Below, in pieces: positions 5,842 to 31,640 of a stretch of DNA of 54,626 bases (position 1 is its first letter; every line of letters begins with the position of its first letter). The stretch comes from Betaproteobacteria bacterium (GTDB lineage: Bacteria > Pseudomonadota > Gammaproteobacteria > Burkholderiales > SG8-39). The stretch lies in the NCBI GenBank assembly GCA_947466535.1, contig CANIEV010000005.1:1-54626 (forward strand), read 5' to 3'. Made by a program: the position numbers and the translations under genes. The notes below the pieces were generated by a model, which saw only the letters and a program-made list of their open reading frames with translations, was not told the DNA's origin and did no database searches.

Positions 5842-6870
5842 TCAGGCCGCCTTCTGGTACTGCTCGATCAGCGCGTCCTTGATGTGCTCGTTGAACAGGT
5901 TCGCCGAGCGTGACGATTCGGCGAGTGTCATGTCGCCGAAGGCGAGGCGCAGCAGGAAGTAGTTGATGCCGGTCTCCGCCGCCTGCTTGAGCATGGCGCT
6001 TCGCACCGTGGCGGGCGAGCCGGCGATGCCCTGGCCGTTGGCCACGACTTCGTCGAAGCTCTCGGTGTAGGTGGTGTAGAGCGGCTTGGTGTTGCGCTTG
6101 CGCCAGAGGTAGATGAAGTTGTCGTACCAGCGGCTGTAGGCGCGCCGGCCGATTTCCATGGCTTCCTTGTCCGTATCGGCGATCACGATATGGCGCGTGG
6201 TGCCCATGAAGGGAATCTGTGCCGGGTCGCGGCCGAGGCGCGTCCACTCGGCGCGGTAGCGGCCGGTGACCTCCTTCACCATCGTCGGCAGGCCGTTGGT
6301 GACCACGTTGAAGCCTTCGCCCGCGGCCCAGGTGGCGCTTGGGGGGTTGGAAGTGCCGTACCAGATCGGCGGCATTGGTTTTTGCAGCGGCTTGAGCAGC
6401 GAGGGCACGTCCTTGAAGGTGTAGTACTCGCCTTCGAAGTTCACCGTGTCCTGGGTGAGCGACTGCTTGATGACCTGGTAGCCCTCGAGGTACATCGCCT
6501 GCGCCTTCTGCGGATCGAAGCCGAAAAGCTGGATTTCGATCGGCGACACCCCGCGGCCTATGCCCAGCTGCAGGCGGCCGCCGCTCATGTGATCGAGCAT
6601 GCAGATCTCGTCGGCGAGGCGCAGCGGGTGGTAAAGAGCAAGCGTGTACACCAGCGGGCCGAAGCGCAGTGTCTTGGTGCGTTGCGCGAGCGCGGAGATG
6701 AACACAGAAGGCGAGGGCGACATGCCGAGCGGCGTCGCGTGGTGCTCGGCCATGTGATAGGCGTGGATGCCGATGTTCTCGTACACCTGCGCGAGCTTCA
6801 GCCGGTTTTCGAAGAATTCCTGCATCGGCAGGCCGCTGTTGTCTAGGTGGTCGAAGATGCCGAATTTCAT
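5842..6870 (-). CDS. LLM-class flavin-dependent oxidoreductase (luciferase-like monooxygenase) (1)
   Basis: 342 residues starting MKFGIFDHLDNSGLPM, with AEHHATPLG, LALYHPLRLADEICMLDHMS and GIGRGVSPIE, the usual motifs of bacterial luciferase-like F420/FMN-dependent TIM-barrel enzymes. Such enzymes oxidise or hydroxylate organic substrates with reduced flavin; none of the specific subfamilies is recognisable. It is strikingly similar to the protein at 30498-31514 over its whole length, so the two are paralogues. It follows an MDR-type oxidoreductase on the same strand (95 bp). Its stop lies at the edge of the repeat array. Confidence 0.9.
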   Translation of the reverse strand: MKFGIFDHLDNSGLPMQEFFENRLKLAQVYENIGIHAYHMAEHHATPLGMSPSPSVFISALAQRTKTLRFGPLVYTLALYHPLRLADEICMLDHMSGGRLQLGIGRGVSPIEIQLFGFDPQKAQAMYLEGYQVIKQSLTQDTVNFEGEYYTFKDVPSLLKPLQKPMPPIWYGTSNPPSATWAAGEGFNVVTNGLPTMVKEVTGRYRAEWTRLGRDPAQIPFMGTTRHIVIADTDKEAMEIGRRAYSRWYDNFIYLWRKRNTKPLYTTYTESFDEVVANGQGIAGSPATVRSAMLKQAAETGINYFLLRLAFGDMTLAESSRSANLFNEHIKDALIEQYQKAA

Positions 6871-7977: not shown

Positions 7978-9054
7978 TTATGGCCAGAGCGGCGGTTCGT
8001 CCATCAACGAGATCTGTTCCTTCAGCTCGAGGATGCGGTCCTGCCAGTAACGCTGCGTGTTGAACCACGGAAACGCAGCGGGAAAGGCGGGGTCGTCCCA
8101 GCGGCGCGCGATCCACGCCGAGTAATGGATCAGCCGCAGCGTGCGCAGCGCCTCGATCAGGCGCAGCTCGCGCGTGTCGAACTCGAAGAAATCCTCGTAG
8201 CCGGCGAGCACGTCGGCAAGGCTGGTGCCCATGTGTTCTCGCTCCGAGGGCAGGAGCATCCACAGGTCCTGGATCGCCGGGCCCATGCGGCAGTCGTCGA
8301 AATCCACGAAGTGCGGGCCGCGCTGGTCCCGGCTTTCGCTCCAGAGCACGTTGCCCGAGTGGCAGTCACCGTGCAGGCGAATGAGCTTCACGTCGCCCGC
8401 GCGTTCGTACGAGCGCTTTACGCCATCGAGCGCGAGGTTCACTGCGGCAGTCCATGCTCCGAGCAGTTCATCCGGGATGAAGCGGTGCTTCAGCAGCCAG
8501 TCGCGCGGCTCGATGCCGAAGCTGTCGATGTCGAGCGCGGGGCGATGGGCAAAGGGGCGGATGGCCCCCACCGCATGGATGCGACCCATGAAACGGCCGA
8601 TCCACTCCAGCGTTTCGCGGTTTTCCAGTTCGGGCGGGCGGCCGCCGCGGCGCGGATAGACGGCAAAGCGGAAATCCTTGTACACCGCGAGTGTGCTGCC
8701 GTTCGCGTCGAGCGGCGCCACCACCGGGATTTCGAGTTCGGCGAGTTCCTGCACGAAACCGTGTTCCTCGAGGATCGCGGCATCGCTCCAGCGGCCGGGG
8801 CGGTAGAACTTGGTCACCACCGAGGTGTTGTCCTCCAGCCACACCTGATAGACGCGGTTTTCATAGCTGTTCAAGGCCTGAAGGCGCCCGTCGCCGCGAA
8901 AATCCACGGTATCGAGGGCATCCAGGACGGTGTCCGGCGTGAGACCGGAGTAGGGGGTATTGGCGGGAGGGGGGGCGGGGGAGCGGGCCGCTTTGGGTTG
9001 CGAATCTTGACCGCGATTCGGGTCGAACTGCGAGTCGGGCGGCTGGGTGTTCAT
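7978..9054 (-). CDS. srkA: SrkA/YihE-like stress response kinase
   Basis: A choline-kinase-fold protein. Visible are a nucleotide-binding region ending VVTKFYRPGRWSD, the catalytic loop RLHGDCHSGNVLW and the metal-binding HFVDFDDCRMGPA, followed by DLWMLLPSERE, matching the YihE/RdoA (SrkA) family, cytoplasmic Ser/Thr kinases linked to Cpx/envelope stress in E. coli. I use the ATG at 9054 (MNTQPPDSQF); the frame is open up to an ATG at 9096, and the real N-terminus is uncertain because residues 1-30 are low in complexity (Pro/Ala rich). It is divergent from the MlaF-like gene; the two share a gap of about 100 bp. Confidence 0.85.
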   Translation of the reverse strand: MNTQPPDSQFDPNRGQDSQPKAARSPAPPPANTPYSGLTPDTVLDALDTVDFRGDGRLQALNSYENRVYQVWLEDNTSVVTKFYRPGRWSDAAILEEHGFVQELAELEIPVVAPLDANGSTLAVYKDFRFAVYPRRGGRPPELENRETLEWIGRFMGRIHAVGAIRPFAHRPALDIDSFGIEPRDWLLKHRFIPDELLGAWTAAVNLALDGVKRSYERAGDVKLIRLHGDCHSGNVLWSESRDQRGPHFVDFDDCRMGPAIQDLWMLLPSEREHMGTSLADVLAGYEDFFEFDTRELRLIEALRTLRLIHYSAWIARRWDDPAFPAAFPWFNTQRYWQDRILELKEQISLMDEPPLWP

Positions 9055-9984: not shown

Positions 9985-10959
9985 CTACTCGGCCTTGATG
10001 TTGGCGGTGCGGATCAGCTTCGACCAGCGGTCCATGTCCTTCATAAGCAGTGCGCGGAATTCTTCCGGCGAGCCGATTGCGGACACCATGCCCTGGCCGC
10101 CGAGCGTCGTGCGGATGTCTTCCATCGCTAGAATCTCGCGCGTCGCGCGGTTGAGCTGATCGACGATCGCACGCGGCGTCTGCGCCGGCAGCAACAGCGC
10201 ATACCAGAGGTCCACGTCGAAGTCCGCAAAGCCAAGCGCTTCGGCAATCGTCGGTGTATCGGGAAGCGCCGCATGCCGGCCGGGACTTGCCACAGCGATC
10301 GCACGCAGCTTTCCGCTGCGGATGTGCGGCAGCGCGGACTGCAGCGGCACGAACATGAGGTCGATGTGGCCCGCGAGCAGCGCGCCCACCACTTCCGCCG
10401 CGCCCTTGTGCGGTACATGCACCATGTCTATCGAGGCGGTGTTCTTGAGCAGTTCCATCGCGAGGTGCTGCGGCGTGCCAATGCCGGCCGAGCCGTAGTT
10501 GAGCTTTCCGGGATTCGCCCGTGCCGTGGCAACGAGTTCCTTCGGATTGCGCGCCTCGACCTTCGGATTCACCGCCAGCACCAGCGCGCCGCGTGTCACA
10601 AGGCCCACCGGCGCGAAGTCCTTCAGCGGGTCGAAGCGCAGCTTGTACAGGCTCGGGTTCATCGCAATCGTGTTGGCCACCATCAGCACGTTGTAGCCGT
10701 CGGGCGGTGCGCCTGCCACGAGTTCGGTGCCGATGTTGCCGCCCGCGCCGACGCGGTTCTCGACATACACCGGCTGGCCGAGCTTCTCGCTCATCTTCTG
10801 CGCGATCGACCGGGTGACGAGGTCGATGCCGGTGCCGGCGCTGTAGGGCAGGACGAAGCGGATAGGTTTCGATGGCCAGGCCTGCGCCGCGACGGGACCG
10901 GCAAGCGCCGAGGCGATGACGATGAGCACAAGAGCGGCAAGACGAAGGCGTGGGTTCAT
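9985..10959 (-). CDS. Bug/TctC-family periplasmic substrate-binding protein (3)
   Basis: 324 residues with signal peptide (MNPRLRLAALVLIVIASALA, cleavage near AQA) and Bug-family sequence: WPSKPIRFVLPYSAGTGID, YVENRVGAGGNIGTELVAG, PDGYNVLMV. Instead of the common PPGG loop it has YSAGTGID, suggesting a different ligand from the two receptors at 679 and 3689. It lies 22 bp after the stop of a Rieske oxygenase on the same strand, so the two are likely co-transcribed and the receptor may deliver that enzyme's substrate (inference). No TctAB genes are nearby. Confidence 0.92.
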   Translation of the reverse strand: MNPRLRLAALVLIVIASALAGPVAAQAWPSKPIRFVLPYSAGTGIDLVTRSIAQKMSEKLGQPVYVENRVGAGGNIGTELVAGAPPDGYNVLMVANTIAMNPSLYKLRFDPLKDFAPVGLVTRGALVLAVNPKVEARNPKELVATARANPGKLNYGSAGIGTPQHLAMELLKNTASIDMVHVPHKGAAEVVGALLAGHIDLMFVPLQSALPHIRSGKLRAIAVASPGRHAALPDTPTIAEALGFADFDVDLWYALLLPAQTPRAIVDQLNRATREILAMEDIRTTLGGQGMVSAIGSPEEFRALLMKDMDRWSKLIRTANIKAE

Positions 10960-10981: not shown

Positions 10982-12184
10982 TTAGACCGGAAATACCAGC
11001 GTGTCGCGGCTCGGCGTGCGCTCGTTGCGCGGTGCTCGCGTGCCCTCGAGTTGCTGGGCGACGAAGGCTTCGGCCAGGCGCCGGCGTATGCGCACCATGT
11101 CGCGGTCCGGGCTGAGCAGGAATTCGTTGGCGCGCGATTCGACGAGATCGCCCGCCATTGCCGCCATCGCGCGGTCTTCCGCCGCAGTCCGGAGCTGGCG
11201 CGGGCGCACCACGCGCTCGACGAGATCGCGAAGCTTCTCGCGCTGGGCGTCCGATTCGACCCGCCACGCGGCGAAGCGGAACAGGCGGGTGCGGTGGTAG
11301 TCGATCGGCACCTGGTACAACCGCGACACGTAGGCGGCGGCGGTGGGCACCGGCCGAAGCACGTTGGTGACCATGCCCGGCAGGTTGAAGCGTTCGCCGC
11401 GGATGGTCTCCAGCCGGTGGCCGTGGTCGAGATGCCGGCCTTCGCGATCCACCGAGATGCCGCGCAGGCCGTGGCCGTCGGTCTCGACGATCTCGATCAG
11501 GCGGTCTGCAAGCGGAACCGTGCTCGCGCCGGCGTCCTTGCCCGCATGCGCGCGCGCGGCGGCCGGGTCGATGTAGCGCAGCACCGATTCATGTTCCTGC
11601 GATTCGGCGTGCAGCGTGACCGCGTGATAGGTGTCGCTGCCGTCGATCACCAGCAGCCAGTTCGCATCCCATTCCTCGGTCGGAAGCGAGAAATGAATGA
11701 AGCGGTCGGGGTGAAGCAGTTCCTCCGGCAGACAGTCCTCGATGGGTGGCGCGGGAAACTTCTTCACATCCCCGAGATACGCCCAGACATAGCCGCCGAT
11801 TTCTTCGGTCGGATAAGACGTGACGCAAAGTTTGCTGTTCAGGTCGGACGCCTGCTTTTCCCACGGGATCAGCGTGCAGGAACCGTCGCCCGCGAAGCGC
11901 AGACCGTGATAGGCGCACTGGAGTTCGCCGGCGAGCACGCGGCCGGCGGAGAGTTTCACCCGGCGGTGCGGGCAGCGGTCGTTCATCACGCGCGCACGGC
12001 CCTCGCCGTCGCGCCAGATGACGAGATCCTCGTTCAGGCACTTGAGGCCCACCGGCGCGTTCGCCGGCACCTCCGGACTCTGGATGATCGGATACCAGTA
12101 GTTGCGAAGCCCGGTCTCGAGGCCCTTCGGGACGCCGCTTGCCAGCTCGGGCCAGGATTTCGATGCGGTATTCGTGTTTGCCAT
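10982..12184 (-). CDS. Rieske-type aromatic ring oxygenase, terminal oxygenase subunit (1)
   Basis: I use the ATG at 12184 (MANTNTASKS) because AAGGTGG lies five bases upstream; the frame opens further to 12214. About 400 residues. The Rieske [2Fe-2S] ligands are Cys71-x-His73 and Cys90-x2-His93 (CPHRR, CAYHG). The mononuclear iron motif is DGSDTYHAVTLH with Asp184, His187 and His192. This is the phthalate/vanillate/dicamba-type single-component oxygenase arrangement, which needs a separate reductase; none is encoded nearby. Substrate unknown. It is divergent from a second Rieske gene at 12433, with a perfect 22-bp palindrome between them, and precedes a Bug receptor. Confidence 0.92.
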   Translation of the reverse strand: MANTNTASKSWPELASGVPKGLETGLRNYWYPIIQSPEVPANAPVGLKCLNEDLVIWRDGEGRARVMNDRCPHRRVKLSAGRVLAGELQCAYHGLRFAGDGSCTLIPWEKQASDLNSKLCVTSYPTEEIGGYVWAYLGDVKKFPAPPIEDCLPEELLHPDRFIHFSLPTEEWDANWLLVIDGSDTYHAVTLHAESQEHESVLRYIDPAAARAHAGKDAGASTVPLADRLIEIVETDGHGLRGISVDREGRHLDHGHRLETIRGERFNLPGMVTNVLRPVPTAAAYVSRLYQVPIDYHRTRLFRFAAWRVESDAQREKLRDLVERVVRPRQLRTAAEDRAMAAMAGDLVESRANEFLLSPDRDMVRIRRRLAEAFVAQQLEGTRAPRNERTPSRDTLVFPV

Positions 12185-12310
12185 GATCGCCACCTTGTCA
12201 GCGCGTCGCGCCATGAAAGATTCGCCCGCTCATTGAACCGGAGCGGTGTCCCGGGCGCAAGCAGGGTGCCTTGGAGGTGCATCCACTGCCAGCCTGCATG
12301 ATAGGATAAA

Positions 12311-12332
12311 ACTGCTTAGGGTCCTAAGCAGT
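12311..12332. promoter_or_regulatory. Perfect 22-bp palindrome between divergent Rieske genes, candidate operator
   Basis: The arms ACTGCTTAGG and CCTAAGCAGT are exact reverse complements around a GT spacer. The site lies 126 bp from the start of the minus-strand Rieske gene and 100 bp from that of the plus-strand one, so a single dimeric regulator could control both. The MarR-type protein at 16518 is a candidate by proximity. The sequence is clear; the function is inference. Confidence 0.6.
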
Positions 12333-12432
12333 CAGTATTTTTTCCGCCACTCTGGCGCGCTGTCGAAGTGTTTGCACCGGACCGAGCGATGCGCGGTCGG
12401 ATTTTCCCGGAAAACCGGATGAGGAGATTGGA

Positions 12433-13548
12433 ATGTCGGCCAATCCAGCAGAAGTGAAATACATCGATGCGCGTGCCGGTTCCGGCAGGCGCGACCGGCG
12501 CAGCTGGGGCGAGCTCGAAGCCGAACTCGCCACCGGGCTTCGCAACCACTGGTATGCGCTCATTCCGTCGGACGAAGTGCCGGCGGACAAGCCGCTTGGC
12601 ATCACCCGCATGGGCGAGGACCTCGTCCTCTGGCGCGACGGCGACGGCAGGATCCGGGTGATGTCGGACAAGTGCCCGCATCGCGGTGCGAAGCTGTCGC
12701 TCGGCAAGGTGCACAGCGGCGGCCTGATGTGCTGGTACCACGGCTGGTTCTTCGAGCCCTCGGGTCAATGCACCAGCATCCCGTCCGAGGGCGGCGCCTG
12801 CGAGCTCGCGAACGAGGTGAAGGTGCGCAGCTACCCGGTCGAGGAACACGGCGGCCTGGTGTATGCGTACTTCCCCGCCGAGGGCACGCCCGAGGGCGCG
12901 GCGCCGGCCGAGCCCTGCCCGAATCCCTACGAGCTGGAGAGCCCGGAGTGGAACGGCTTCATCGTCCGCCATCACTGGAAGGGCGTGAACTGGTTCCGCG
13001 CGATGGACAACCTGATCGATCCGCTGCACGCGCCGTTCCTGCACGCGGGCACCTACACGCTCAACAAGACCACGGGCTACAAGGACCATATCGAGGTGCG
13101 CAAGAACGAGGACGGCAGCTACTTCGTCGGGCGCAAGGGGCAGGCGCTGGTGAATTTCGATTTCACCGAGTTCCACTTCCCGAACTGGTTCCGGCTGGAC
13201 ATTCCCTATCCGTGGTCGGCCGGGCCGGGCGGGCCGATGCGCATCCTCGTCACCGTCTGCCCGATCGATGCCGACTCCTGCCAGGTGTACATGGTGCGCA
13301 AGCGCAAGATCACCGGCTGGAAGTGGTGGCTCTGGGCTTTCCTCTGGCATGTGCGCCTGGAGAACAAGATGTGGCAGGTGATCGATCAGGACGAGGCGAT
13401 CCTCGCATCACAGCGGGTGGGCGAGGCGCTTACCAGCGAATACCTGGTGCAGGGTGACACGGGACTTGTCACGCTGCGCAACCTGTTCCGCGAAGCGGTG
13501 GCGAAGCAGGCAGATGCTCAACAAGACAACCCGCGGGGCGCACGATGA
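12433..13548 (+). CDS. Rieske-type aromatic ring oxygenase, terminal oxygenase subunit (2)
   Basis: 371 residues. Rieske ligands Cys81, His83, Cys100 and His103 (CPHRG, CWYHG); mononuclear iron motif DNLIDPLHAPFLH with Asp196, His199 and His204. Class as for phthalate 4,5-dioxygenase or vanillate demethylase oxygenase subunits. It shares fold and N-terminal style (TGLRNHWYALIPSDEVP) with the divergent Rieske protein but is clearly distinct. It is the first gene of the plus-strand catabolic block and overlaps the LigA-like gene by four bases (ATGA), implying translational coupling. Start supported by GAGGAGATTGGA upstream. The electron-transfer reductase is not in the window. Confidence 0.93.
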   Translation: MSANPAEVKYIDARAGSGRRDRRSWGELEAELATGLRNHWYALIPSDEVPADKPLGITRMGEDLVLWRDGDGRIRVMSDKCPHRGAKLSLGKVHSGGLMCWYHGWFFEPSGQCTSIPSEGGACELANEVKVRSYPVEEHGGLVYAYFPAEGTPEGAAPAEPCPNPYELESPEWNGFIVRHHWKGVNWFRAMDNLIDPLHAPFLHAGTYTLNKTTGYKDHIEVRKNEDGSYFVGRKGQALVNFDFTEFHFPNWFRLDIPYPWSAGPGGPMRILVTVCPIDADSCQVYMVRKRKITGWKWWLWAFLWHVRLENKMWQVIDQDEAILASQRVGEALTSEYLVQGDTGLVTLRNLFREAVAKQADAQQDNPRGAR

Positions 13549-13820
13549 GTCTGTACGGCATGCAGAAGTTCATGTTCGTCCTGAAAAAGGACAAGTCGCT
13601 GCAGGCGAAATTCAAGGAGGATGCGCAGGGTGCGCTCGGTTCCTTCCCGCTCAGCCAGCCCGAGAAGGACGCGCTTGCCGCGGGGGATCTGGCTGCGCTC
13701 TACACGATGGGCGTGCATCCGCTGCTGCTCGCCCCGTATTCGCGTTTCATGGCAATTCCCCGACCCAAATACCAGACCGCACTCGACCCGCTGAGGGGTC
13801 TGCGCGTGCTGCGTAGCTAG
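13545..13820 (+). CDS. LigA-like protein (protocatechuate 4,5-dioxygenase alpha-chain family)
   Basis: 91 residues, shorter than LigA of Sphingobium (about 139) and similar to stand-alone LigA-like domains. It has the helical pattern SLQAKFKEDAQGALGSFPLS and ALAAGDLAALYTMGVHPLLL seen in this family. LigA-type subunits cap the active site of a LigB-type catalytic subunit; the matching LigB-like gene starts 129 bp downstream. The start overlaps the stop of the Rieske gene. The gap to ligB is unusual in this otherwise tight operon because it contains a two-hairpin repeat element. Confidence 0.85.
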   Translation: MSLYGMQKFMFVLKKDKSLQAKFKEDAQGALGSFPLSQPEKDALAAGDLAALYTMGVHPLLLAPYSRFMAIPRPKYQTALDPLRGLRVLRS

Positions 13821-13828
13821 AGAGAGTT

Positions 13829-13922
13829 TGAACAAGGGGGCGATGCCCCCTTGTAGATTCCCCAATTCAGACGGAAGCTGAGATTGATTCGTTGCACGAT
13901 ATGAACCAATCGCAGCTTCCGT
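13829..13922 (+). repeat. Two-hairpin intergenic element, copy 1 (between ligA-like and ligB-like genes)
   Basis: Hairpin I is 13832-13854: ACAAGGGGGC, loop GAT, GCCCCCTTGT, a perfect ten-base-pair stem. Hairpin II is 13871-13922: outer stem ACGGAAGCT with AGCTTCCGT, a 2x2 internal loop, inner stem GATTG with CAATC and a 20-base loop. The element ends 27 bp before the ligB-like start codon. Copies 2 and 3 are at 27553 and 38371. It could be a mobile REP/MITE-like element, an RNA-processing or stability element, or a leader RNA. There is no T-run, so it is not a canonical terminator. Confidence 0.75.
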
Positions 13923-13949
13923 GAACGGAAAGAACGGAAAGAACCGACC

Positions 13950-14762
13950 ATGGGAAGTCTCGTATTCGCAGGAGCAATGAGACACGCGCCCGGTATCGCT
14001 GCGTTCACCAATGCGGCGAGCCCGGAGCAGCGCGCGAGCTTTTTCGGTGCCACCGATCAACTCAAGGCGGCGGCGGCCGCCGCGGCGCCGGATGTGATGT
14101 TGGTGATCGCACCGGATCATTTTTCCAATTTCTTCATCGACAACATGCCGCCCGCCTGCGTCACGCTGAACGAGGCATACCCGGGGCCGGTGGAAGACTG
14201 GCTGGGCATTTCGAAAGTATCGATCAAGGGCGCGCCGGATCTTGCACGCTCGATTCTCAAGCATGCGTTTGACGCGGGCATCGAACCCGCGTTCTCCGAG
14301 GACGCGGCGCTCGAGCACGGTGTGATCGTGCCGCTCAATCTTGTCACGCCCGGATTCGGCGTTCCGATCGTCTGGATCATGCAGAACTGCCAGGTGCCAC
14401 CGCTGCTGTCGCTCGCGCGCTGCCACGCCTTCGGTCGCGCGATCCGCAAGGCGATCGACGCGAGTTCGCTGCGCGTGGGCGTGCTCGGCACCGGCGGACT
14501 CTCGCATGCGCCGGGTGCGGCGGAGGCCGATCGGCTGGATGAGGAGTTCGATCGCGATTTCCTCGGGCGTCTGGATCGCAATGCGGTCGACGAAATTCTT
14601 TCCATGCCGAATGCGCGGCTCGATGCCGCAGGTTTCGGAAGTTGGGAAATACGCCAGTGGGTGACCGCTTTGGGCGTGGCGCACGACCGCAAGCCGCGCA
14701 CGCTCGCCTACGAAGCGGTGGTCGAGTGGGACACCGGCTGCGCAGTCGCGATCTACGAGTGA
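13950..14762 (+). CDS. LigB-like class III extradiol ring-cleavage dioxygenase catalytic subunit
   Basis: 270 residues. By comparison with LigB, the iron ligands His12 (MRHAPG), His57 (APDHFSN) and Glu233 (WEIRQW) and the catalytic base His186 (GGLSHAPG) are all present, so an active Fe(II) extradiol dioxygenase is expected. It would open a catechol-type ring using O2, with the LigA-like protein as partner. Substrate could be protocatechuate, gallate, an aminophenol or another catechol derivative; sequence alone does not tell. The start is preceded by two tandem GAACGGAAA units, giving a GGAAAG Shine-Dalgarno-like site. Confidence 0.92.
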   Translation: MGSLVFAGAMRHAPGIAAFTNAASPEQRASFFGATDQLKAAAAAAAPDVMLVIAPDHFSNFFIDNMPPACVTLNEAYPGPVEDWLGISKVSIKGAPDLARSILKHAFDAGIEPAFSEDAALEHGVIVPLNLVTPGFGVPIVWIMQNCQVPPLLSLARCHAFGRAIRKAIDASSLRVGVLGTGGLSHAPGAAEADRLDEEFDRDFLGRLDRNAVDEILSMPNARLDAAGFGSWEIRQWVTALGVAHDRKPRTLAYEAVVEWDTGCAVAIYE

Positions 14763-14807
14763 CGCGAGCGAATAAATGAGCGGAAAACTGAGCGGATAAC
14801 TTAGCGA

Positions 14808-15719
14808 ATGCCTGCCGATTCCGGGAAGTCGCTTCGAACCGTCACGCTCGCGCTCGGCCTGCGCTCCACCGCGCAGAGCCTGGGCGTCATCGGGCGTGAG
14901 CTGGGTGTCTTCGCGCGGCACGGGCTCGACCTGTGCATCGTACGCGAGGAAACCGCCGGGCCGGACGGTGCGCGCGGACTGCTCTCGGGCGAATTCCAGT
15001 TCGCCGAATTCGGCTCGGTGCCTATCGTGCAGGCGGGCATCGAGGGGCAGGATCCCTTGATTCTCCTCGCGGCGGAACCGGTGTCGGCGCTCTACATCCT
15101 CGGCAATCGCGATACCGATTCCCCGGCCAGGCTCGAGGGCGGCGCGATCGGCGTGCTGTCGCAGGCGGGACAGACCGGCTTTTCCGCGCAGAAGATGCTC
15201 GAACGTTGGGGCCTCGCCGGCAAGGTCGCGCTAATGCCGCTCGGCACCTATCCGAAGATCTACGCCGCGCTCGGCGCGGGCGAGATCGCGGGCGGCGTGC
15301 TCACCGCGGACTACCGACTCGCGGGTGAGATCGCGCACGGCTTCGTGCAGCTCGCCGATCTTGGCGAGGAATTCAAGTACCAGGGCCCGGTGGTGGCCAC
15401 GACCAAACGGCTTCGCGACAGCGATCCCGAGCTTGTGGCTGCGGTGGTGCGCGCCTATATGGAATCCATCCGCGTGTTCAAGACCGAGGCGGCGCAGGTG
15501 GTGCCGGTGCTCAAGCGCCATCTCGGTTTCGTGGACGACGCACAGGCGGCGGCGATCCAGGCCTTCTACGCCGTGCGCTTTCGCGACTTTCCGCTCGCCT
15601 CCGACGAAGGCATTGCGCGAGTGATCGCCTCCTTCGAAGCCACGCATCCCGGCGCGGCAAAACTCAAACCGTCCGATGTGCACGATCCGTCCTTCGTGCG
15701 CGCGGAAAGGGGAATCTGA
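14808..15719 (+). CDS. NMT1/SsuA-like substrate-binding protein without signal peptide
   Basis: 303 residues resembling the NMT1/ThiY-like periplasmic binding fold: TVTLALGLRSTAQSLGVIGR, ELGVFARHGLDL, LLSGEFQFAEFGSVPIVQ and later GIGVLSQAGQTGF-like sequence. Unusually, the N-terminus (MPADSGKSLRTVTLAL) has no signal peptide and no lipobox, and there is no SsuBC-type permease or ATPase pair beside it. It may be a cytoplasmic protein using the fold for ligand sensing or enzymatic purposes. It lies between ligB-like and SDR genes and ends two bases before the SDR start, so it belongs to the same operon. Family call moderate, role unknown. Confidence 0.8.
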   Translation: MPADSGKSLRTVTLALGLRSTAQSLGVIGRELGVFARHGLDLCIVREETAGPDGARGLLSGEFQFAEFGSVPIVQAGIEGQDPLILLAAEPVSALYILGNRDTDSPARLEGGAIGVLSQAGQTGFSAQKMLERWGLAGKVALMPLGTYPKIYAALGAGEIAGGVLTADYRLAGEIAHGFVQLADLGEEFKYQGPVVATTKRLRDSDPELVAAVVRAYMESIRVFKTEAAQVVPVLKRHLGFVDDAQAAAIQAFYAVRFRDFPLASDEGIARVIASFEATHPGAAKLKPSDVHDPSFVRAERGI

Positions 15720-15721
15720 CC

Positions 15722-16504
15722 ATGGACCTCGGCATTCGCGGCCGTACCGCACTGATTACCGCTTCTTCCAACGGCATCGGCAAGCGTTGCGCGCTGACGC
15801 TCGCGGCCGAAGGCGTGAAGCTGGTGCTCTGCGCACGCGGCAAGGAACGGCTGGATGTTACCGCGGCGGAAGTCGCGGCGATCGCGGGTGCGGACAATGT
15901 GCTTGCGCTCACCGCCGACATCGGAAAGACGGACGATATCGAACGCGTCTGCCGCGAAGGAGAGGCGAAGTTCGGCGGCATCGATATTCTGGTTTTCATC
16001 GGCGGTTCGCCCAAGCGCGGCGCACCCGCGGTGATAAACGAGGCGGACCTGCGCGATGCGTTCGAACTCACCGTGGTGCCGGCCTTCACGCTCACCCGGC
16101 TGCTCGTGCCCGGCATGCGCAAACGCGGCTGGGGCAGGGTGGTGACGGTGCAGGCGCGCTCGGTGCGCGAACCGATCGAAGATCTGGTCACGTCGTCGGC
16201 GACGCGCCCCGGCGTGGCGGGCCTGTTCAAGTACCTTGCCAACGAAGTCGCGGGCGACGGCGTCACGGTGAACACCATCGTACCCGGCCGCATCAATACC
16301 GAGCGTTTCCGCGCCGGTGCCGAATACGCGGCGAAAGTGGGTGACGCCACCTACATGAAGGACAAGGTCGGCGGCATTCCTGTCGGGCGCCTCGGCGAGC
16401 CGCAGGAAGTGGCCGATGCGGTGTGCTATCTCGCCTCGATGCGGGCGTCCTATATCAACGGCGCCGCGCTGCAGGTCGACGGCGGCGTGATCCGGGCGAT
16501 CTAG
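15722..16504 (+). CDS. Atypical short-chain dehydrogenase/reductase
   Basis: 260 residues with a Rossmann N-terminus (ALITASSNGIGKR) and the SDR C-terminal pattern VNTIVPGRINTER and SYINGAALQVDGG. The usual NNAG is replaced by FIGGS, and where YxxxK is expected the sequence is SSATRPGV, so the catalytic Tyr and Lys read Ser and Arg. This matches a divergent SDR subgroup seen in catabolic clusters, whose chemistry is not established. It is tightly packed between the NMT1-like gene (2 bp) and a MarR gene (13 bp). Confidence 0.85.
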   Translation: MDLGIRGRTALITASSNGIGKRCALTLAAEGVKLVLCARGKERLDVTAAEVAAIAGADNVLALTADIGKTDDIERVCREGEAKFGGIDILVFIGGSPKRGAPAVINEADLRDAFELTVVPAFTLTRLLVPGMRKRGWGRVVTVQARSVREPIEDLVTSSATRPGVAGLFKYLANEVAGDGVTVNTIVPGRINTERFRAGAEYAAKVGDATYMKDKVGGIPVGRLGEPQEVADAVCYLASMRASYINGAALQVDGGVIRAI

Positions 16505-16517
16505 GGACGCGACCATC

Positions 16518-17024
16518 ATGCTCTCCACCCTGAAAAACGGCTACCCGGTGAGCGAGAGCATCGGCCACCTGATCAACCTCACCCACAGACAAATCCAGCC
16601 GCTACTGGAAGAACGCGTCCGTGAATACGGTGTTTCCTACGGTACCTGGTTCTTCCTGCGCGCGCTCTGGGAAGAGGATGGCGTGAGCCAGGCGGCGCTC
16701 GCCGAGCGCGTCGGTGCCTCGCAGCCAACCACGCTCGCGGCGCTTCGCAAGCTCGCCGATCAGGGGCTGGTCGCGCTCAAGGACGACCGAGCTGACAAGC
16801 GCAAGTTCCGCGTCATGCTCACCGCCAAGGGGCGCGCGCTGCACGCGGAACTGATTCCCCGCGTCGCTGAAATCAACGGCGTCGTGCTGCGCGGACTCTC
16901 GCGCAGCGAAGTGAACGAGTTGCGTAGAATGCTCAAGCTCATCCAGAAGAATGCGAACGCCGACATCGCCGAATCGCATTCCCCCACGCTGCGCGCGAAG
17001 CGCGCCCGCAAGCCCGTGATCTGA
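16518..17024 (+). CDS. MarR-family transcriptional regulator
   Basis: 168 residues. A winged-helix domain is visible: recognition region VSQAALAERVGASQPTTLAALRKL (shown in part) and wing DDRADKRKFRVMLTAKG, flanked by dimerisation helices. MarR proteins of catabolic operons usually repress and are released by a pathway intermediate. It sits between the ring-cleavage genes and the ABC importer, and is the most likely local regulator. Candidate target palindromes are at 12311-12332 and 559-576 (inference). The C-terminal tail is basic (RAKRARKPVI). Confidence 0.93.
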   Translation: MLSTLKNGYPVSESIGHLINLTHRQIQPLLEERVREYGVSYGTWFFLRALWEEDGVSQAALAERVGASQPTTLAALRKLADQGLVALKDDRADKRKFRVMLTAKGRALHAELIPRVAEINGVVLRGLSRSEVNELRRMLKLIQKNANADIAESHSPTLRAKRARKPVI

Positions 17025-17065
17025 ATCCACGACACAGACGTTCACCCTTCACCAGGAGACTGCAC

Positions 17066-18277
17066 ATGAGCGAAAAGAAATTTACGCGCAGGGATGTCCT
17101 CACGATCGCGGGCGCGGCCGCGGGTACGATGATGGCGCCGGGCATCATCCGGGCGCAGTCGCGCTCGAACGCGCCGATCAAGGTGGGCGTCAATCTGCCG
17201 ACCTCGGGCGTGTTCGCACTCGTCGGCCAGGAGGCCAACAAGGGCGTGCAGATGTACCTCGAGTCGATCAAGCACACCGTCGCCGGCCGCAAGATCGAGG
17301 CGATCTTCGAGGACGAGACAGTGCAGGTGAACGTCGGCGTCGCCAAGGCCCGCAAGCTGCTGGAAAACGACGGCGTGCATGCGCTGATCGGCGGCGTGGC
17401 CACGCCGGTGATCTATGCCACCGCACCGCTGATCATCAAGGCGCAGACGCCCTACATCATCACCGTGGGCGGCGGAGCCGAAATTACGCGCAAGTCCAAG
17501 CGCAACGAATACTCATTTCGCACCAGCTACAACATCTGGGCGCAAACCTATCCCTTCGCCAAGTGGATCGCGCAGAACAAGACCAAGAAGGTCTACATCT
17601 TCTGCCCCGACTACGCGGCGGGCAAGGAATTCGCCGACGCCTTCAAGGCGGGCTTCACCGAAGGCGGCGGCACGATCGTGGGCGAGTCGTACGCGCCGCT
17701 CGCCACGCCGGATTTCGTGCCTTTCCTCACCAAGGTCGCCGAAGCCAAGCCCGAAGGCATCTTCGGTTTCTGGGCGGCGAGCGCGGCGATCCGCTTCCTC
17801 AAGGCGGCCGACCAGCTCGGTATCAACCGCACGTCCACCCTGTATCTCTCCGGCTTCGCGGTGGACTACGACACCCTGCCCGAAACCGCCAACGCGGCGA
17901 TCGGTGCGATCTCGGTGCACTCCTGGAACCTCGACCTGCCTAACGCCGCCAACCAGGCCTTCGTGAAGGCCTACGAGGCAAAGTACAAGGCAACGCCGTC
18001 CTACCTGCCGTTGTTCGGTTGGGATGCGATGCGCGCGGTGGTGGCGGCCGTCGAAAAGGTGAAGGGCAATGTCGAGGACAAGCCGAAGTTCGCTGCCGCC
18101 TTCAAGGGCCTGACCTTCGACAGCCCGCGCGGCAGGATGTCCATCAATGCGAACACCCACGACATCGTGCAGGACCTGTACATCCGCGAGACGGTGGCGG
18201 GCGGCAAGACGATGCCGGTCTCCAAGGTGATCGCGACCCTGCCCAACGCGGCCGATCCGTTCCCGGACAAGGGCTAG
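17066..18277 (+). CDS. Branched-chain amino acid/aromatic-type ABC transporter substrate-binding protein (LivJ family)
   Basis: 403 residues with a Tat signal: twin arginine in TRRDVLTIAGAAAG and cleavage near IIRAQ. The mature part has the periplasmic-binding type I pattern IKVGVNLPTSGVFALVGQEA and the later VYIFCPDYAAGKEF. Family members in catabolic clusters often bind aromatic acids or amides rather than leucine. It starts the set binding protein - permease - permease - ATPase - ATPase. AGGAG lies upstream of the ATG. A Tat signal is common for this family in Burkholderiales. Confidence 0.93.
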   Translation: MSEKKFTRRDVLTIAGAAAGTMMAPGIIRAQSRSNAPIKVGVNLPTSGVFALVGQEANKGVQMYLESIKHTVAGRKIEAIFEDETVQVNVGVAKARKLLENDGVHALIGGVATPVIYATAPLIIKAQTPYIITVGGGAEITRKSKRNEYSFRTSYNIWAQTYPFAKWIAQNKTKKVYIFCPDYAAGKEFADAFKAGFTEGGGTIVGESYAPLATPDFVPFLTKVAEAKPEGIFGFWAASAAIRFLKAADQLGINRTSTLYLSGFAVDYDTLPETANAAIGAISVHSWNLDLPNAANQAFVKAYEAKYKATPSYLPLFGWDAMRAVVAAVEKVKGNVEDKPKFAAAFKGLTFDSPRGRMSINANTHDIVQDLYIRETVAGGKTMPVSKVIATLPNAADPFPDKG

Positions 18278-18302
18278 CGGCGCTCGCGCGCGGAGGGTTC
18301 GC

Positions 18303-19181
18303 ATGTCGTTTTTCGCCGTCCAGTTCCTGAACGGGCTTGCCTTCAGCCTGCTGCTGTTTTTCGCGGCGGCCGGCCTGTCGATCTCGTTCGGCCTGCTCAA
18401 CCTTGCGAACCTCGCGCACGGCGGCTTTTACATGCTCGGCAGCTATGTGGCGCTCGCGGTCTATGCCGCCACCAAGAGCTTTACGCTCGCACTGGTGGTG
18501 GCGCCGCTGGTGCTCGCAGTGGTGGGCATGATCATCGAGCTGGGATTTCTTCGGCATTTGTATCAACGCGACCACCTCGACCAGGTGTTGCTCACCCTCG
18601 GCTTCGCCTACGTGATCTGGGATGTGGCGAACTGGATCTGGGGCGGGGCGGCCTACCTGCTCTCGCCCCCGGACATTCTTTCCGGAAAGATCCAGGTGAT
18701 GGGGCACGACTACCCGGTGTACCGGGTGGCGGTGCTCGGCGGCGGCCTGGTGATGGCGGCGATCCTGCTCTGGATCGAGGCGAAGACGAAGATCGGCGCG
18801 GTTATCCGTGCCGGCGTGTCCGACCCGCAGATGCTGCGCGCGATGGGCATCAACGTCGGCCTCGTGTTCACCGTGACCTTCTGCTTCGGTGCGGCGCTCG
18901 CGGGACTCGGCGGCGTGGTGGGCGGGCCGATCATCGGCCTGTACCGCGATGTGGACTTCGAAATCCTGATGCTCGCGACCATCGTTGTGGTGGTGGGTGG
19001 CCTCGGTTCGCTGCGCGGCACCTTCGTGAGCTGCCTGCTGGTGGGACTGATCGACAGTTTCGGCAAGGTCTATTTCCCCGACTTTGCGCTGGTTTCGATG
19101 TTCATCGTAATGGCGGTGGTTCTGCTGGTGCGGCCCGCGGGGCTGTTCGGCGTGCAGCGTTCCATCCTGTCGGGCGCGTAG
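18303..19181 (+). CDS. Branched-chain-type ABC transporter permease, LivH family
   Basis: 292 residues, mostly hydrophobic, with about eight membrane segments. The LivH signature start is seen (FLNGLAFSLLLFFAAAGLSI followed by FGLLNLANLAHGGFYMLG), as is the EAA-like loop near ALAGLGGVVGGPI. It forms the inner-membrane channel with the LivM-like protein encoded two bases downstream. GGAGG precedes the ATG. Confidence 0.93.
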   Translation: MSFFAVQFLNGLAFSLLLFFAAAGLSISFGLLNLANLAHGGFYMLGSYVALAVYAATKSFTLALVVAPLVLAVVGMIIELGFLRHLYQRDHLDQVLLTLGFAYVIWDVANWIWGGAAYLLSPPDILSGKIQVMGHDYPVYRVAVLGGGLVMAAILLWIEAKTKIGAVIRAGVSDPQMLRAMGINVGLVFTVTFCFGAALAGLGGVVGGPIIGLYRDVDFEILMLATIVVVVGGLGSLRGTFVSCLLVGLIDSFGKVYFPDFALVSMFIVMAVVLLVRPAGLFGVQRSILSGA

Positions 19182-19182
19182 C

Positions 19183-20157
19183 GTGGACCTTATCCCGGAG
19201 GCGCGCCGCAGGCGTGCAGTGATTGAGCTTGCAGTGCTGGTGGCGCTCGCCGCGCTGCCTTTCCTTGCCAACAAGCCGTTCTACATCACCGTCATCGCGG
19301 AAGCGATGGTGTTCGCGATCGCAGCGATGAGCCTCGACCTGCTGCTCGGCTACACCGGGCTTGCGTCCTTCGGCCATGCCGCCTTCTTCGGCATCGGCGC
19401 CTACACCGCGGGGCTGATCGGGGTGAAGTTCACCGCGCTACTGCCGGTGACGCTCGGTGCGGCGATGATCGTGGCGGGGGCGGCGGCGCTGGTGGGCGGC
19501 TGGCTTGCGATTCGCTCGGCGGGCATCTACTTCATCTTTCTCACGCTCGCGCTCGCGCAGATGGTGTTCGCGATTGCATTCAAGTGGCGCAGCCTCACCG
19601 GTGGCGACGACGGCCTCCCCGGCGTGCCGCGGCCCTCGGTCTGGCCGTTCGACGCGCTCATCGACACCTCCGACAACCGCGTTTTCTATCTGCTGACGCT
19701 TGCGATTTTCTCGATCGCCTATCTCGTTCTTCGTCGCATCGTGTCCTCCGGATTCGGCACGGTGCTCATCGGCATTCGCGAGAACGCGGGGCGCATGACT
19801 GCGATTGGCTACAACGTGCAGGCCTACAAGATTGCCGCCTTCGTGCTCTCGGGCGCGTTCGCGGGCCTCGCGGGCGGGCTGTTCGCGCATCTCTTCCAGC
19901 TGGTGTCGCCCGAGCAGGCGCACTGGCAGACGTCCGCCCTGCTGCTGATCATGGTGGTGCTTGGCGGCTCGGGCTCGCTGGTGGGACCGAGCGTCGGCGC
20001 GCTGATCGTGGTGCTGCTGCACAACGTGGTGTCTACCTATACCGAGCGCTGGCCGCTGATCATGGCGGGGATCTTCATCCTGGTGGTGATGTTCGCGCGC
20101 GGCGGGCTGTGGGGGCTTGCAAGCCGTTACGTGATGCGGAAACGGGGCGAGGCATGA
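19183..20157 (+). CDS. Branched-chain-type ABC transporter permease, LivM family
   Basis: 324 residues with multiple membrane segments and LivM motifs: AMSLDLLLGYTGLASFGHAA, FFGIGAYTAG, and SGAFAGLAGGLFAHLFQLVSP in the coupling region. It begins with GTG at 19183, two bases after the livH stop, and overlaps the livG start by four bases, so translation is coupled. It is the second channel half of the importer. Confidence 0.93.
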   Translation: MDLIPEARRRRAVIELAVLVALAALPFLANKPFYITVIAEAMVFAIAAMSLDLLLGYTGLASFGHAAFFGIGAYTAGLIGVKFTALLPVTLGAAMIVAGAAALVGGWLAIRSAGIYFIFLTLALAQMVFAIAFKWRSLTGGDDGLPGVPRPSVWPFDALIDTSDNRVFYLLTLAIFSIAYLVLRRIVSSGFGTVLIGIRENAGRMTAIGYNVQAYKIAAFVLSGAFAGLAGGLFAHLFQLVSPEQAHWQTSALLLIMVVLGGSGSLVGPSVGALIVVLLHNVVSTYTERWPLIMAGIFILVVMFARGGLWGLASRYVMRKRGEA

Positions 20158-20963
20158 GCGAGAGCTCGATGGCAGGCGAAGGCCTCGTCGCCGACAAGGA
20201 GGGCCTGGTGGCCGTGGCCATCACCCGACGCTACGGCGGCTTCAACGCGCTGGAGAATGTGAACCTCACCGTGGCGCCGGCCGAGCGGCATGCGCTGATC
20301 GGCCCGAACGGCGCGGGCAAAACCACGATGTTCCATATCCTCGGCGGGCAGGTGCCACCGTCGGCAGGCAAGATCACGCTCGGCGGCGAGGACATCACCG
20401 AAATGGCGCCGTACCGGCGCGTGGCGCTTGGCGTGGCGCGCACCTTCCAGCGCAACAATCTTTTCTTCGGCCTTACCGTGTTCGAGAACATCCGGTTGTC
20501 GGTGCAGGCGCACACCTCCGCCGGGCGCAATCTGTTTCGCCTCGCCTCGGTTCATCGCGGCATCACTGAACGCGCGCAGCAGATCATCGAGCAGTTCGCG
20601 CTTGAACCGCTTGCGCGCAGGCCTGCCTCCGAGTTGTCCTACGGCGACCAGCGAAAGCTGGAGATTGCGGTGGCGCTTGCCGGGAAGCCGCGCGTGCTGC
20701 TGGTGGACGAACCCACCGCGGGCATGTCGCCCGCCGAGACTGCCGAGATGGTGAAGGTGCTCTCGCTGATGCCGCGGGACGTTTCGCTGCTCATCGTCGA
20801 ACACGATATGGACGTGGTCTCGGCGCTAGCCGACCGCGTCACCGTGCTGCAGAACGGCCGGCTGATCGCCGCGGGCACCTGGGACGAGATTCGCGTGAAC
20901 GAATCCGTGCAGATGGCATACATGGGTAACAAGCGGGGCACAAAAAGGCCAAAGGCCCGCTGA
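20154..20963 (+). CDS. Branched-chain-type ABC transporter ATP-binding protein, LivG family
   Basis: The frame is open much further upstream, but the ATG at 20154 (MSESSMAGEG) overlaps the livM stop as ATGA and gives a normal 269-residue protein. Walker A GPNGAGKTT, family-typical ARTFQRNNLFFGLTVFENI, signature LSYGDQRKLEIA in place of LSGGQ (normal for LivG), Walker B VLLVDEPTAGMSP and H-loop VEHDMDVV. It powers import together with LivF. Confidence 0.94.
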   Translation: MSESSMAGEGLVADKEGLVAVAITRRYGGFNALENVNLTVAPAERHALIGPNGAGKTTMFHILGGQVPPSAGKITLGGEDITEMAPYRRVALGVARTFQRNNLFFGLTVFENIRLSVQAHTSAGRNLFRLASVHRGITERAQQIIEQFALEPLARRPASELSYGDQRKLEIAVALAGKPRVLLVDEPTAGMSPAETAEMVKVLSLMPRDVSLLIVEHDMDVVSALADRVTVLQNGRLIAAGTWDEIRVNESVQMAYMGNKRGTKRPKAR

Positions 20964-21670
20964 TGCTCGAACTCCAGGACCTCAATGCGTTCTACGGCGT
21001 AAGCCATGTGCTGCAGGGCGTGTCGATGAAGATCGGCCCGGGTGAGGTGGTGTGCCTGCTCGGGCGAAACGGCGCGGGCAAGACCACCACCGTGTCCTCG
21101 ATCATCGGTTTCGTGAAATCCCGTGACGGCAAGATCCTGATGAACGGCGAGGACATCTCCGGACTCGCCGTGGAAAAGCGTGCGCGCACCGGCATTGCGC
21201 TGGTTCCGCAGGGGCGGCGGGTGTTTCCGCTGCTCACCGTGGAGGAGAATCTGGTCATTGGCGGTCGCAAGGGCAAGGCGCGTGGCGATTCCGGAGGCTG
21301 GACGCTGGAGCGGGTGTACGAACTGTTCCCGCGGCTTCGCGAACGCCGCACCAACCTCGGCAGCCAGCTATCCGGCGGCGAGCAGCAGATGCTTGCGATC
21401 GGCCGCGCGCTGATGGCGAATCCGGCACTGATCCTGATGGACGAGCCCTCCGAAGGCCTCGCACCGATGGTGATCGAAGAGGTGTACCGGGTGATCGGGC
21501 AACTCGCGAGCAAGGGCATGTCGATCCTGCTGGTGGAGCACAGCCTGGAGCAGGCGATTGCGCTCGCGAGCCGTATCTACATCATGAACAAGGGGAAGAT
21601 CGTCTTCGAGACGACCGACCCGGCTGCGCTCACCGACGAGGTGCGCGAGCGTTTTCTGGGAGTGGGCTGA
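20963..21670 (+). CDS. Branched-chain-type ABC transporter ATP-binding protein, LivF family
   Basis: 235 residues; the ATG shares one base with the livG stop. Walker A GRNGAGKTT, RRVFPLLTVEENL as in LivF, signature LSGGEQQMLAIGRAL, Walker B LILMDEPSEGLAP, H-loop LVEHSLEQ. It ends two bases before the gamma-glutamyltransferase gene, so the importer and the downstream enzymes are probably one transcript. Confidence 0.94.
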   Translation: MLELQDLNAFYGVSHVLQGVSMKIGPGEVVCLLGRNGAGKTTTVSSIIGFVKSRDGKILMNGEDISGLAVEKRARTGIALVPQGRRVFPLLTVEENLVIGGRKGKARGDSGGWTLERVYELFPRLRERRTNLGSQLSGGEQQMLAIGRALMANPALILMDEPSEGLAPMVIEEVYRVIGQLASKGMSILLVEHSLEQAIALASRIYIMNKGKIVFETTDPAALTDEVRERFLGVG

Positions 21671-27718: not shown

Positions 27719-28720
27719 ATGAAATTCACTCTCCATCTCAGCACCCGCATCCAGGACAAGCGCAACGAGCTTCCTCTCATCAACTACATGACCGAGCTTG
27801 CGCTCGAGGCCGACGTCACCGGCTTTGAAGCGATATCGCTCACCGAGCATCACCTGCACGAGAACCAGGGCTATCAGAACTCGCTGCTCTTCGCGTGCGC
27901 GCTCGCGCCGCGGCTGAAGCAGGCGACGCTGGTTCTCGCCACGGTGAATCCGGCTATCCACCATCCGGTGCGGCTGGTGGAGTCGTGCAACCTGATCGAC
28001 CAGTTGAACGGCGGGCGGCTGGTGGTGGGATTCGGCTCCGGGTTCAAGGACACGGACCTGATCGCCTTCGGGAGAGATCTTTCGCAGCGCTCGACGCTGT
28101 TCGAGGACAGCATCCGCACGGTGCTGGATGTCTGGGCGTTCGACCGCTCGAAAGGGCCGCTGGACTTTGCTGTGGGCAGCGAGCGCGGGCGGATAGAGTC
28201 GCCGGTGAATCCGTCGTCCTTTCGCAAGCCGCATCCGATGCTCGCGCGCGGCACGCTGAACGAGCAGGCGGTGCTCGAGACCGCCGCGCGCGGATGGGCG
28301 GTGCTCACCGCGGCGAAGACGCCGGAGGATGCAAAGCGGCAGATGGCCAAATACCACGCGGCGCTCGATGCGGCGGGTCACGATGCGGAAACCGTTCGCC
28401 GCGCGCGCGCCTGGTCGGCGGTGGGCAAGGCGCTGCACGTGGCCGAGACCGACGCGCAGGCACGGGCGGAAGCCACCGCGTTCTTCGAGAAGAACCCGAG
28501 CGGCGCGATCGCGCGCAATCCGGACGACATGATCTGTGGCAGCCCGGAGACGGTCACGCGCACGATGCGCGCCTTCGCCGAGTCGGGCGTCGGGCAGATG
28601 ATCTGCGGCCCGCTGATCGACGTCGAAGATCGGTCGGCGCTTCAACGCAGCCTGCGGTTGCTGCGGGAGGAAGTGATTCCGAAGGTCAGCCGCGAGGCGC
28701 CCGCGCTTCAGGCTGCGTGA
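27719..28720 (+). CDS. LLM-class flavin-dependent oxidoreductase (2)
   Basis: 333 residues of luciferase-like TIM-barrel fold: MKFTLHLSTRIQDKR start, ISLTEHHLHENQGYQNSLLF, VNPAIHHPVRLVESCNLIDQ and GGRLVVGFGSGFKDTD. It belongs to the same superfamily as the proteins at 5842 and 30498 but is clearly a different subgroup. It is probably a single-gene transcription unit with the two-hairpin element in its leader. Substrate and flavin cofactor (FMN or F420) cannot be assigned. Confidence 0.9.
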   Translation: MKFTLHLSTRIQDKRNELPLINYMTELALEADVTGFEAISLTEHHLHENQGYQNSLLFACALAPRLKQATLVLATVNPAIHHPVRLVESCNLIDQLNGGRLVVGFGSGFKDTDLIAFGRDLSQRSTLFEDSIRTVLDVWAFDRSKGPLDFAVGSERGRIESPVNPSSFRKPHPMLARGTLNEQAVLETAARGWAVLTAAKTPEDAKRQMAKYHAALDAAGHDAETVRRARAWSAVGKALHVAETDAQARAEATAFFEKNPSGAIARNPDDMICGSPETVTRTMRAFAESGVGQMICGPLIDVEDRSALQRSLRLLREEVIPKVSREAPALQAA

Positions 28721-31514: not shown

Positions 31515-31612
31515 GATGTCATCGGGATAAAAGTTTAACTTTTATTTCAAAACACCTTGGCCCGAGATTGAAAGAAGGCGATTCCGATACTGGATTTGGA
31601 ATAATCCTGAAT

Positions 31613-31640
31613 GAAAAACGGGCCCCTCGGGGCCCGTTCT
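31613..31640 (-). terminator. Rho-independent terminator after the amidohydrolase gene
   Basis: A nine-base-pair GC stem, ACGGGCCCC with GGGGCCCGT (31618-31637), is followed on the minus strand by TTTTT. It lies 20 bp beyond the minus-strand stop at 31660 and also faces the convergent luciferase-like gene, so it may work in both directions, better on the minus strand. Confidence 0.88.

Follow-up and report, generated by a model that had tools for sequence, protein, structure and literature searches.

A perfect 22-bp palindrome lies between two divergently transcribed Rieske oxygenase genes in the 54.6-kb stretch of DNA analysed here (the window) and is, on comparative evidence, most likely a MarR-family operator. 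It probably serves the MarR-family regulator encoded at 16518-17024, a dimer of which would repress both Rieske transcripts as well as its own gene and would be released by an aromatic compound. The palindrome and the gene order are read directly from the window (Table 1), and the core of the palindrome, TTAG-N4-CTAA, recurs at the same spacing together with homologous MarR genes and at Rieske or reductase promoters of other genomes. Binding of this particular protein to this particular site is predicted from these sequence comparisons; repression, the effect on both promoters and the aromatic inducer are postulated from the usual ways of MarR-type catabolic repressors.

Table 1. Features of the palindrome region and its flanking genes, with positions in the window.
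Feature	Position	Strand	Basis and remarks
TctC-type periplasmic binding protein	9985-10959	-	PF03401; 3′ of Rieske oxygenase 1
Rieske oxygenase 1	10982-12214	-	PF00355 (Rieske), E 3.6e-21; likely start 12183
Predicted MarR operator, 22-bp perfect palindrome ACTGCTTAGGGTCCTAAGCAGT	12311-12332		Sequence, and register common to MarR-linked sites
Core TTAG-N4-CTAA (TTAGGGTCCTAA), part common to other MarR-linked sites	12316-12327		Cross-locus comparison
Sigma-70-like promoter match TCGACA-18-AAAAAT	12337-12366	-	Weak, 9/12; the only one in 12150-12500
VanA_C-containing Rieske oxygenase 2, at the head of the rightward operon	12433-13548	+	PF00355, E 3.3e-25; PF19112
LigA-type subunit, ring-opening dioxygenase	13545-13820	+	PF07746
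LigB-type catalytic subunit, ring-opening dioxygenase	13950-14762	+	PF02900
NMT1-like substrate-binding protein	14808-15719	+	PF09084
Short-chain dehydrogenase (SDR)	15722-16504	+	PF13561
MarR-family regulator, candidate binder of the palindrome	16518-17024	+	Pfam, homologue and PDB searches; begins 13 bp past the SDR gene, within the operon it would control
Periplasmic binding protein of a branched-chain amino acid-type ABC transporter	17066-18277	+	PF13458
ABC transporter permease (18303-19181) and ATPase (20963-21670)	18303-21670	+	Pfam; called gene 19183-20157 in between

A unique palindrome in the divergent gap

The palindrome consists of two ten-base arms, ACTGCTTAGG and CCTAAGCAGT, that are exactly complementary around a two-base GT spacer, as an earlier sequence-only reading had described and as re-reading of these positions confirmed. 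That reading also judged a perfect ten-base arm unlikely to arise by chance, and this holds: the 249 bp that separate the likely start codons of the two Rieske genes (12184-12432) were shuffled 4000 times with dinucleotides preserved, and four of the shuffles contained a perfect inverted repeat with arms of at least 10 and a spacer of at most 8. Palindromes of this class are not unique within the window, since five such repeats occur in its 54.6 kb, against 0-3 in 10 shuffles. The sequence itself is single-copy. The genome search that had been proposed for further sites returned no second 22-mer at up to three mismatches, either in the window or in the organism's own 4.63-Mb assembly (341 contigs, approximately 90% complete), and the 16-bp centre at up to one mismatch is likewise found once in that genome. 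The many genomic copies that mark a dispersed, REP-like repeat are therefore not seen for the palindrome at up to three mismatches.

In its dimensions (22 bp, arms of 10, spacer of 2) the palindrome matches a MarR-family operator, which spans roughly 16-22 bp and offers two symmetric half-sites to a winged-helix dimer. It also lies where such an operator belongs, in the promoter region of MarR-linked genes, as the divergent gap heads an operon that contains the MarR gene, with co-transcription deduced from gene spacing.

Another of the five perfect repeats is the hairpin ACAAGGGGGCGATGCCCCCTTGT at 13832-13854, between the LigA and LigB genes. It belongs to the family AAGGGGGC-N{1,6}-GCCCCCTT, which has 42 dispersed copies in the own genome against none for a reversed control and is possibly a REP-like element; the same family is also present at 8043-8065 of locus L066. 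Further perfect palindromes are located at 31527-31545 (ATAAAAGTTTAACTTTTAT) and 31617-31638 (AACGGGCCCCTCGGGGCCCGTT), between convergent genes at 30498-31514 (+) and 31660-32664 (-), and are perhaps terminators.

Flanking genes and the candidate regulator

Pfam searches bear out the two divergent Rieske oxygenase genes flanking the palindrome, with strong matches on the minus and plus strands. The listed start of the leftward gene is 12214, but an ATG at 12183 has the better ribosome-binding site by eye. The TctC-type gene is probably carried on the same transcript as Rieske oxygenase 1. On the plus strand, the gaps between genes from 12433 to 19181 range from -4 to 45 bp, with the sole exception of 129 bp at 13821-13949, where the hairpin repeat is found, and these short gaps suggest that the genes form one operon. 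For the Rieske gene at 12433, the public genome scan gave no close orthologue, and the best match outside the window among 98 genomes of the family was 42% identical. The window is rich in oxygenases, also encoding a second LigB-type dioxygenase (32752-33570) and three luciferase-like monooxygenases (5842-6870, 27719-28720 and 30498-31514).

The protein encoded at 16518-17024, previously named as a MarR protein, scores above the cut-off of both Pfam MarR models, PF12802 (MarR_2; 36.9 bits, cut-off 27) and PF01047 (MarR; 35.3 bits, cut-off 24.6), and matches PDB MarR chains with a best E of 1.9e-16, as for a MarR-type winged helix. Its gene, 4.2 kb from the palindrome, is the only transcription-regulator gene among the Pfam-scanned ORFs of the window, several called genes, such as 19183-20157 and 49737-52526, lying outside that scan.

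The palindrome core recurs beside homologous MarR genes

The exact 22-mer, at up to two mismatches, is present in 1 of 300 genomes of the order, namely the window's own, indicating that the conserved unit is the TTAG-N4-CTAA core and not the whole 22-mer. This core was counted in 30 loci (427 kb) encoding homologues of the window's MarR protein, gathered irrespective of the motif from all 16 non-window chromosomal places (stretches of at most 19 kb) and from 14 of 83 plasmid records, the latter including the near-copies L085/L090 and L088/L089. It occurs 32 times, in 18 of the 30 loci; shuffling the same loci over 20 rounds gave a mean of 0.45 and a maximum of 2. Spacers of 2, 3, 5 or 6 in place of N4 yielded no occurrence in these loci, and other four-letter control motifs yielded 1 to 8. 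The 12 loci without the core include three homologues from the own genome. A set of 30 control loci (106 kb), 14 of which (L020-L033) came from a loose search with the motif, contained no site, a zero that says little because shuffles of these loci average just 0.10.

With the motif fixed, a hold-out of ten further plasmid loci, nine from another plasmid homologue search and one from the earlier 83-record set (L136 and L137 being near-copies), carried the core in nine cases, with 15 sites in 119 kb and a single occurrence of a wrong spacing (N2, in L139). The earlier proposals that this MarR protein is the regulator and that both Rieske genes are under joint control thus gain support from comparative genomics. 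On a larger scale, in 15 whole genomes or records chosen because a site had already been seen in their locus, 29 of 45 sites fall within 7 kb of a MarR gene, an area of 210 kb, and 16 are spread over the other 34.1 Mb; the far sites of one record, W03, were counted without regard to the additional MarR-like places in it.

The position of the sites relative to genes was counted in 18 annotated plasmid loci, leaving out the unannotated L088, L094 and L133 and the site-less L093, L095 and L132. All but one of 29 sites lie between listed genes, a count that may be generous as the plasmid gene tables are incomplete and listed genes cover 80% of the loci. Twenty-four of the 29 are located at most 150 bp upstream of a listed start, and for 11 that start belongs to a Rieske oxygenase or PDR reductase gene. 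The core in the window is approximately 106 bp from the start of Rieske oxygenase 2 and 133 bp from the likely start of Rieske oxygenase 1, farther than nearly all the nearest starts in the annotated loci (11-94 bp, with one at 140 bp); this, like the 4.2 kb between palindrome and MarR gene, counts against the operator reading.

On several plasmids (L085, L091, L093, L134, L136, L137 and L139), the vicinity of MarR genes of this group includes a gene annotated as nadC (quinolinate phosphoribosyltransferase-like). Its recurrence, often with Rieske genes, suggests a nicotinate/quinolinate- or phthalate-like step.

Occurrence in the order and in public genomes

Of 399 genomes of the order, 12, among them the window's own, encode homologues of the window's MarR protein at E of 1e-15 or better. 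The longer core CTTAGG-N2-CCTAAG occurs in three of the 399, with one site each (the window's genome, G175 and G076), and its reversed control pattern, though not counted, is commoner in the same genomes. In G175 the core is part of ATTACTTAGGCGCCTAAGTAAT, again a perfect palindrome of 22 bp, which separates divergent Rieske and reductase genes and has a MarR gene at 2.3 kb whose product is 39% identical to the window's; the Rieske and reductase genes were named via homologues in L070, L072 and L074 (45-62% identity by tblastn, with Pfam Rieske and LigXa_C, and Fer2 and NAD/FAD domains). The match in G076, a 1.9-Mb genome, is apparently due to chance: the surrounding 3 kb hold four ORFs of at least 100 amino acids, none MarR-like by eye.

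The pattern WNTRCTTAGGNNCCTAAGYANW, built from the sites of the window and G175, was scanned over 84,980 public genomes and found on 12 contigs. On four of these (L070, L071, which is G175, L072 and L074) the site is at a Rieske and/or reductase gene. A MarR gene of the window's group lies within 2.3 kb of the site in L070, L072 and L071 (as seen in L052), and none was found in the 8 kb of L074. In place of the strictly orthologous gaps that the earlier reading had named as a check, gaps analogous to that of the window carry the site in other genomes. Four more contigs have another MarR-like gene nearby, recognised by Pfam in L073 and L081 and by tblastn or phmmer only in L075 and L076; a Pfam scan of one ORF of L075, perhaps in the wrong frame, gave no match. 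In L077-L080 no MarR or Rieske gene was detected by tblastn or in the one or two ORFs of each that were scanned with Pfam, and in L080 the site falls within a long ORF that encodes an ABC-transporter membrane domain.

Palindromes of the form AATACTTAGG-N2-CCTAAGTATT immediately precede MarR genes of Firmicutes (Enterococcus, Anaerostipes; L073 4762-4783, L081 6520-6541), suggesting that the half-site may serve MarR proteins outside the Proteobacteria too.

Motif shape and promoters

Alignment of 47 distinct sites gives, for each half, A/T at -11 to -9, mostly A/T at -8 and C/A at -7, followed by TTAG, which was fixed by the search, and then most often A/G at -2 and T at -1. The halves of the window's site, ACTGCTTAGGG and ACTGCTTAGGA, are consistent with this motif at most positions, differing in a C at -10 and a G at -8; among the 47 other distinct sites, these bases make up 7% and 17% of their respective positions.

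For promoter elements, 31 site-gene pairs were picked by hand, leaving out L090 and L137 as near-copies together with a few second sites. In nine of them a TTGAC starts 16-20 bp ahead of the centre of the site, and only four occur elsewhere in the 120-bp stretches, which in those clusters places the site in the spacer between the -35 and -10 elements. None of the nine is from the window, which has no such arrangement. A count of promoter overlap (24 of 31) came with no null and was not taken as evidence. The weak sigma-70-like match in the window adjoins the palindrome and is directed left, towards the minus-strand Rieske gene, so that an operator here would cover the transcription start; no convincing match for a promoter of the rightward operon was found in the gap.

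Other explanations for the palindrome

Another of the genome's MarR proteins may be the one that recognises the operator, an unlikely reading that nevertheless has some observations in its favour. The own genome has 29 MarR_2 matches, 23 of them above the cut-off and the window's included, leaving 28 other candidates, among which three are homologues of the window's protein encoded on other contigs. The window's protein also has a recognition helix that begins QPTT, slightly unlike the EPTT of most site-bearing relatives. Against this, the surroundings of the three own-genome homologues (19.0, 11.8 and 13.0 kb in L062, L064 and L066) contain no TTAG-N4-CTAA, and the gene at 16518 belongs to the very operon that begins next to the palindrome. 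The core is present three times in the 4.63-Mb own genome, the palindrome being one; the second site, which we take to resemble half of a CIRCE element, is 110 bp upstream of an ORF that resembles a heat-shock sigma factor by eye, and the third is beside a pilin-like ORF, also by eye. The contigs of these two sites, albeit short (9.1 and 7.3 kb), contain no MarR_2 match. With three sites against 29 MarR_2 matches, the core is hence not a general mark of MarR genes in this genome.

The divergence of the window's MarR protein, which shares 31-42% identity with its homologues and forms a long branch, counts against the main reading, as does the QPTT of its recognition helix. In a tree of the homologues, from which seven rows, mostly weak or second matches, had been removed beforehand, the window's protein grouped with site-bearing rows, with weak placement (84/71). 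Presence of the site showed no significant clustering on this tree, 147 of 500 shuffles being as low. When recognition helices were grouped by eye, the site was present in 18 of 24 (E/A)PT(T/A) rows and in none of the 6 remaining rows (Fisher p 0.0016). This grouping is not relied upon because it is post hoc, the QPTT of the window falls in neither group, the MarR gene of L055 is at a contig end, some rows are near-copies and the tree test is non-significant.

It is very unlikely that the palindrome acts in RNA, where it would form a hairpin of the rightward transcript, either a leader element or an intrinsic terminator, with the stem at 12311-12332 followed by CAGTATTTTTT. A terminator scan does report these positions (shuffles average 0.2), with nine pairs and a T-rich tail, and in one of the 12 public-scan contigs (L077, Prevotella) the pattern is the middle of a longer hairpin, terminator-like in appearance. 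However, only four of the nine pairs are G-C, the loop is two bases, the unbroken T run begins 5 bases past the stem, and upstream on the plus strand the closest called gene already ends at 9965, such that the palindrome does not qualify as an intrinsic terminator; the recurrence of the core at fixed spacing upstream of start codons likewise argues against an RNA feature. Chance or a functionless relic is very doubtful as well: perfect palindromes are not rare in this window, but the gap shuffles, the uniqueness of the 22-mer in the genome and the recurrence of its core at corresponding positions of other genomes speak against it.

Proposed mechanism

As the operator of the MarR protein at 16518-17024, the palindrome would be bound by a dimer that places one recognition helix on each TTAG half of the core, about a centre at 12321/12322. 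The bound dimer would stop RNA polymerase at the divergent promoters from which the two Rieske transcripts start, a leftward one comprising the Rieske 1 and TctC-type genes and a rightward one running from Rieske 2 through the LigA, LigB, NMT1-like, SDR and MarR genes to the ABC transporter. With the MarR gene within the rightward operon, the circuit would be self-repressing. The releasing ligand is envisaged as an aromatic acid, the CoA ester of this acid or an early product of the pathway, and release would turn on uptake, oxygenation and ring cleavage together.

Comparison with known systems

The operators of SlyA and HucR have a TTAG...CTAA register about the dyad, as does the site of the window, although these proteins belong to other subfamilies and have other targets. 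The boxes of DtxR-type iron regulators differ in layout from the palindrome. In pairing a MarR gene with a Rieske-oxygenase catabolic operon, the window resembles the locus of MarR_73 (IadR) of Variovorax. The PDB chain 7kfo, which we take to be MarR_73, matches the window's MarR protein at an E of only 3.3e-4, and on that identification the two proteins are probably distant.

As reported, MarR_73 represses the iad auxin-degradation locus, which includes a Rieske oxygenase, operator duplexes of 22 and 24 bp were tested by calorimetry, and the substrate releases MarR_73 (PMC9613470, PMC12633357). BhbR2 of Pigmentiphaga kullae recognises the site TTGATT-N5-AATCAA and is reported as an activator (PMC12016517). 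The window shares with that system a palindrome of about 17-22 bp at an aromatic-degradation promoter and a cluster-encoded MarR protein, whose binding in the window is predicted; the half-site and spacing differ, and since BhbR2 activates, the sign of control in the window is not certain.

Phthalate-type clusters, consisting of Rieske, PDR/VanB reductase, Gfo/Idh/MocA and MarR genes, are a further point of comparison, and several have TTAG-N4-CTAA at the Rieske or reductase promoter. Plasmid pPNAP04 of Polaromonas carries such a cluster, with a homologous MarR gene and an annotated 4,5-dihydroxyphthalate decarboxylase, and the core is absent from the 12.4 kb taken from it. Unlike these clusters, the window combines two Rieske genes with LigA/LigB and an ABC transporter, with no reductase seen beside them, and Rieske identity is only approximately 31-42%.

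No printed description of a shared operator code was found in the accessible portions of the open-access literature, including a phthalate/MarR paper (PMC13040137). The accessible text of a HucR paper (PMC6401476) contains no TTAG, the regulator in the available part of a Rieske paper (PMC13273656) is of the IclR type, and in two open-access MarR-family papers the letters CTTAG or CTAAG occur only in primer tables. The MarR-type operator is a known kind of element, and a code shared by the Rieske-linked MarR group is possibly undescribed.

Implications for Rieske oxygenase clusters

The mechanism itself, a MarR repressor at a divergent promoter, is ordinary. Beyond the single locus, the recurrence of the site leads us to favour, with some reservation, the view that it represents an undescribed operator code of approximately WWTACTTAG-N4-CTAAGTAWW, used by a wide MarR group that controls Rieske catabolic islands of phthalate-like and other types across Alpha-, Beta- and Gammaproteobacteria, with the window as an instance in which a single operator would silence two Rieske systems. 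The degradation of many aromatic pollutants begins with a Rieske oxygenase, yet the annotation of clusters such as this one names neither a control site nor an inducer. If a short operator code can be tied to a MarR group, regulons would become predictable and parts for biosensors would become available, and, if the code is true, the regulator, the promoters and the likely inducible genes of many uncharacterised oxygenase clusters would be predictable from sequence alone.
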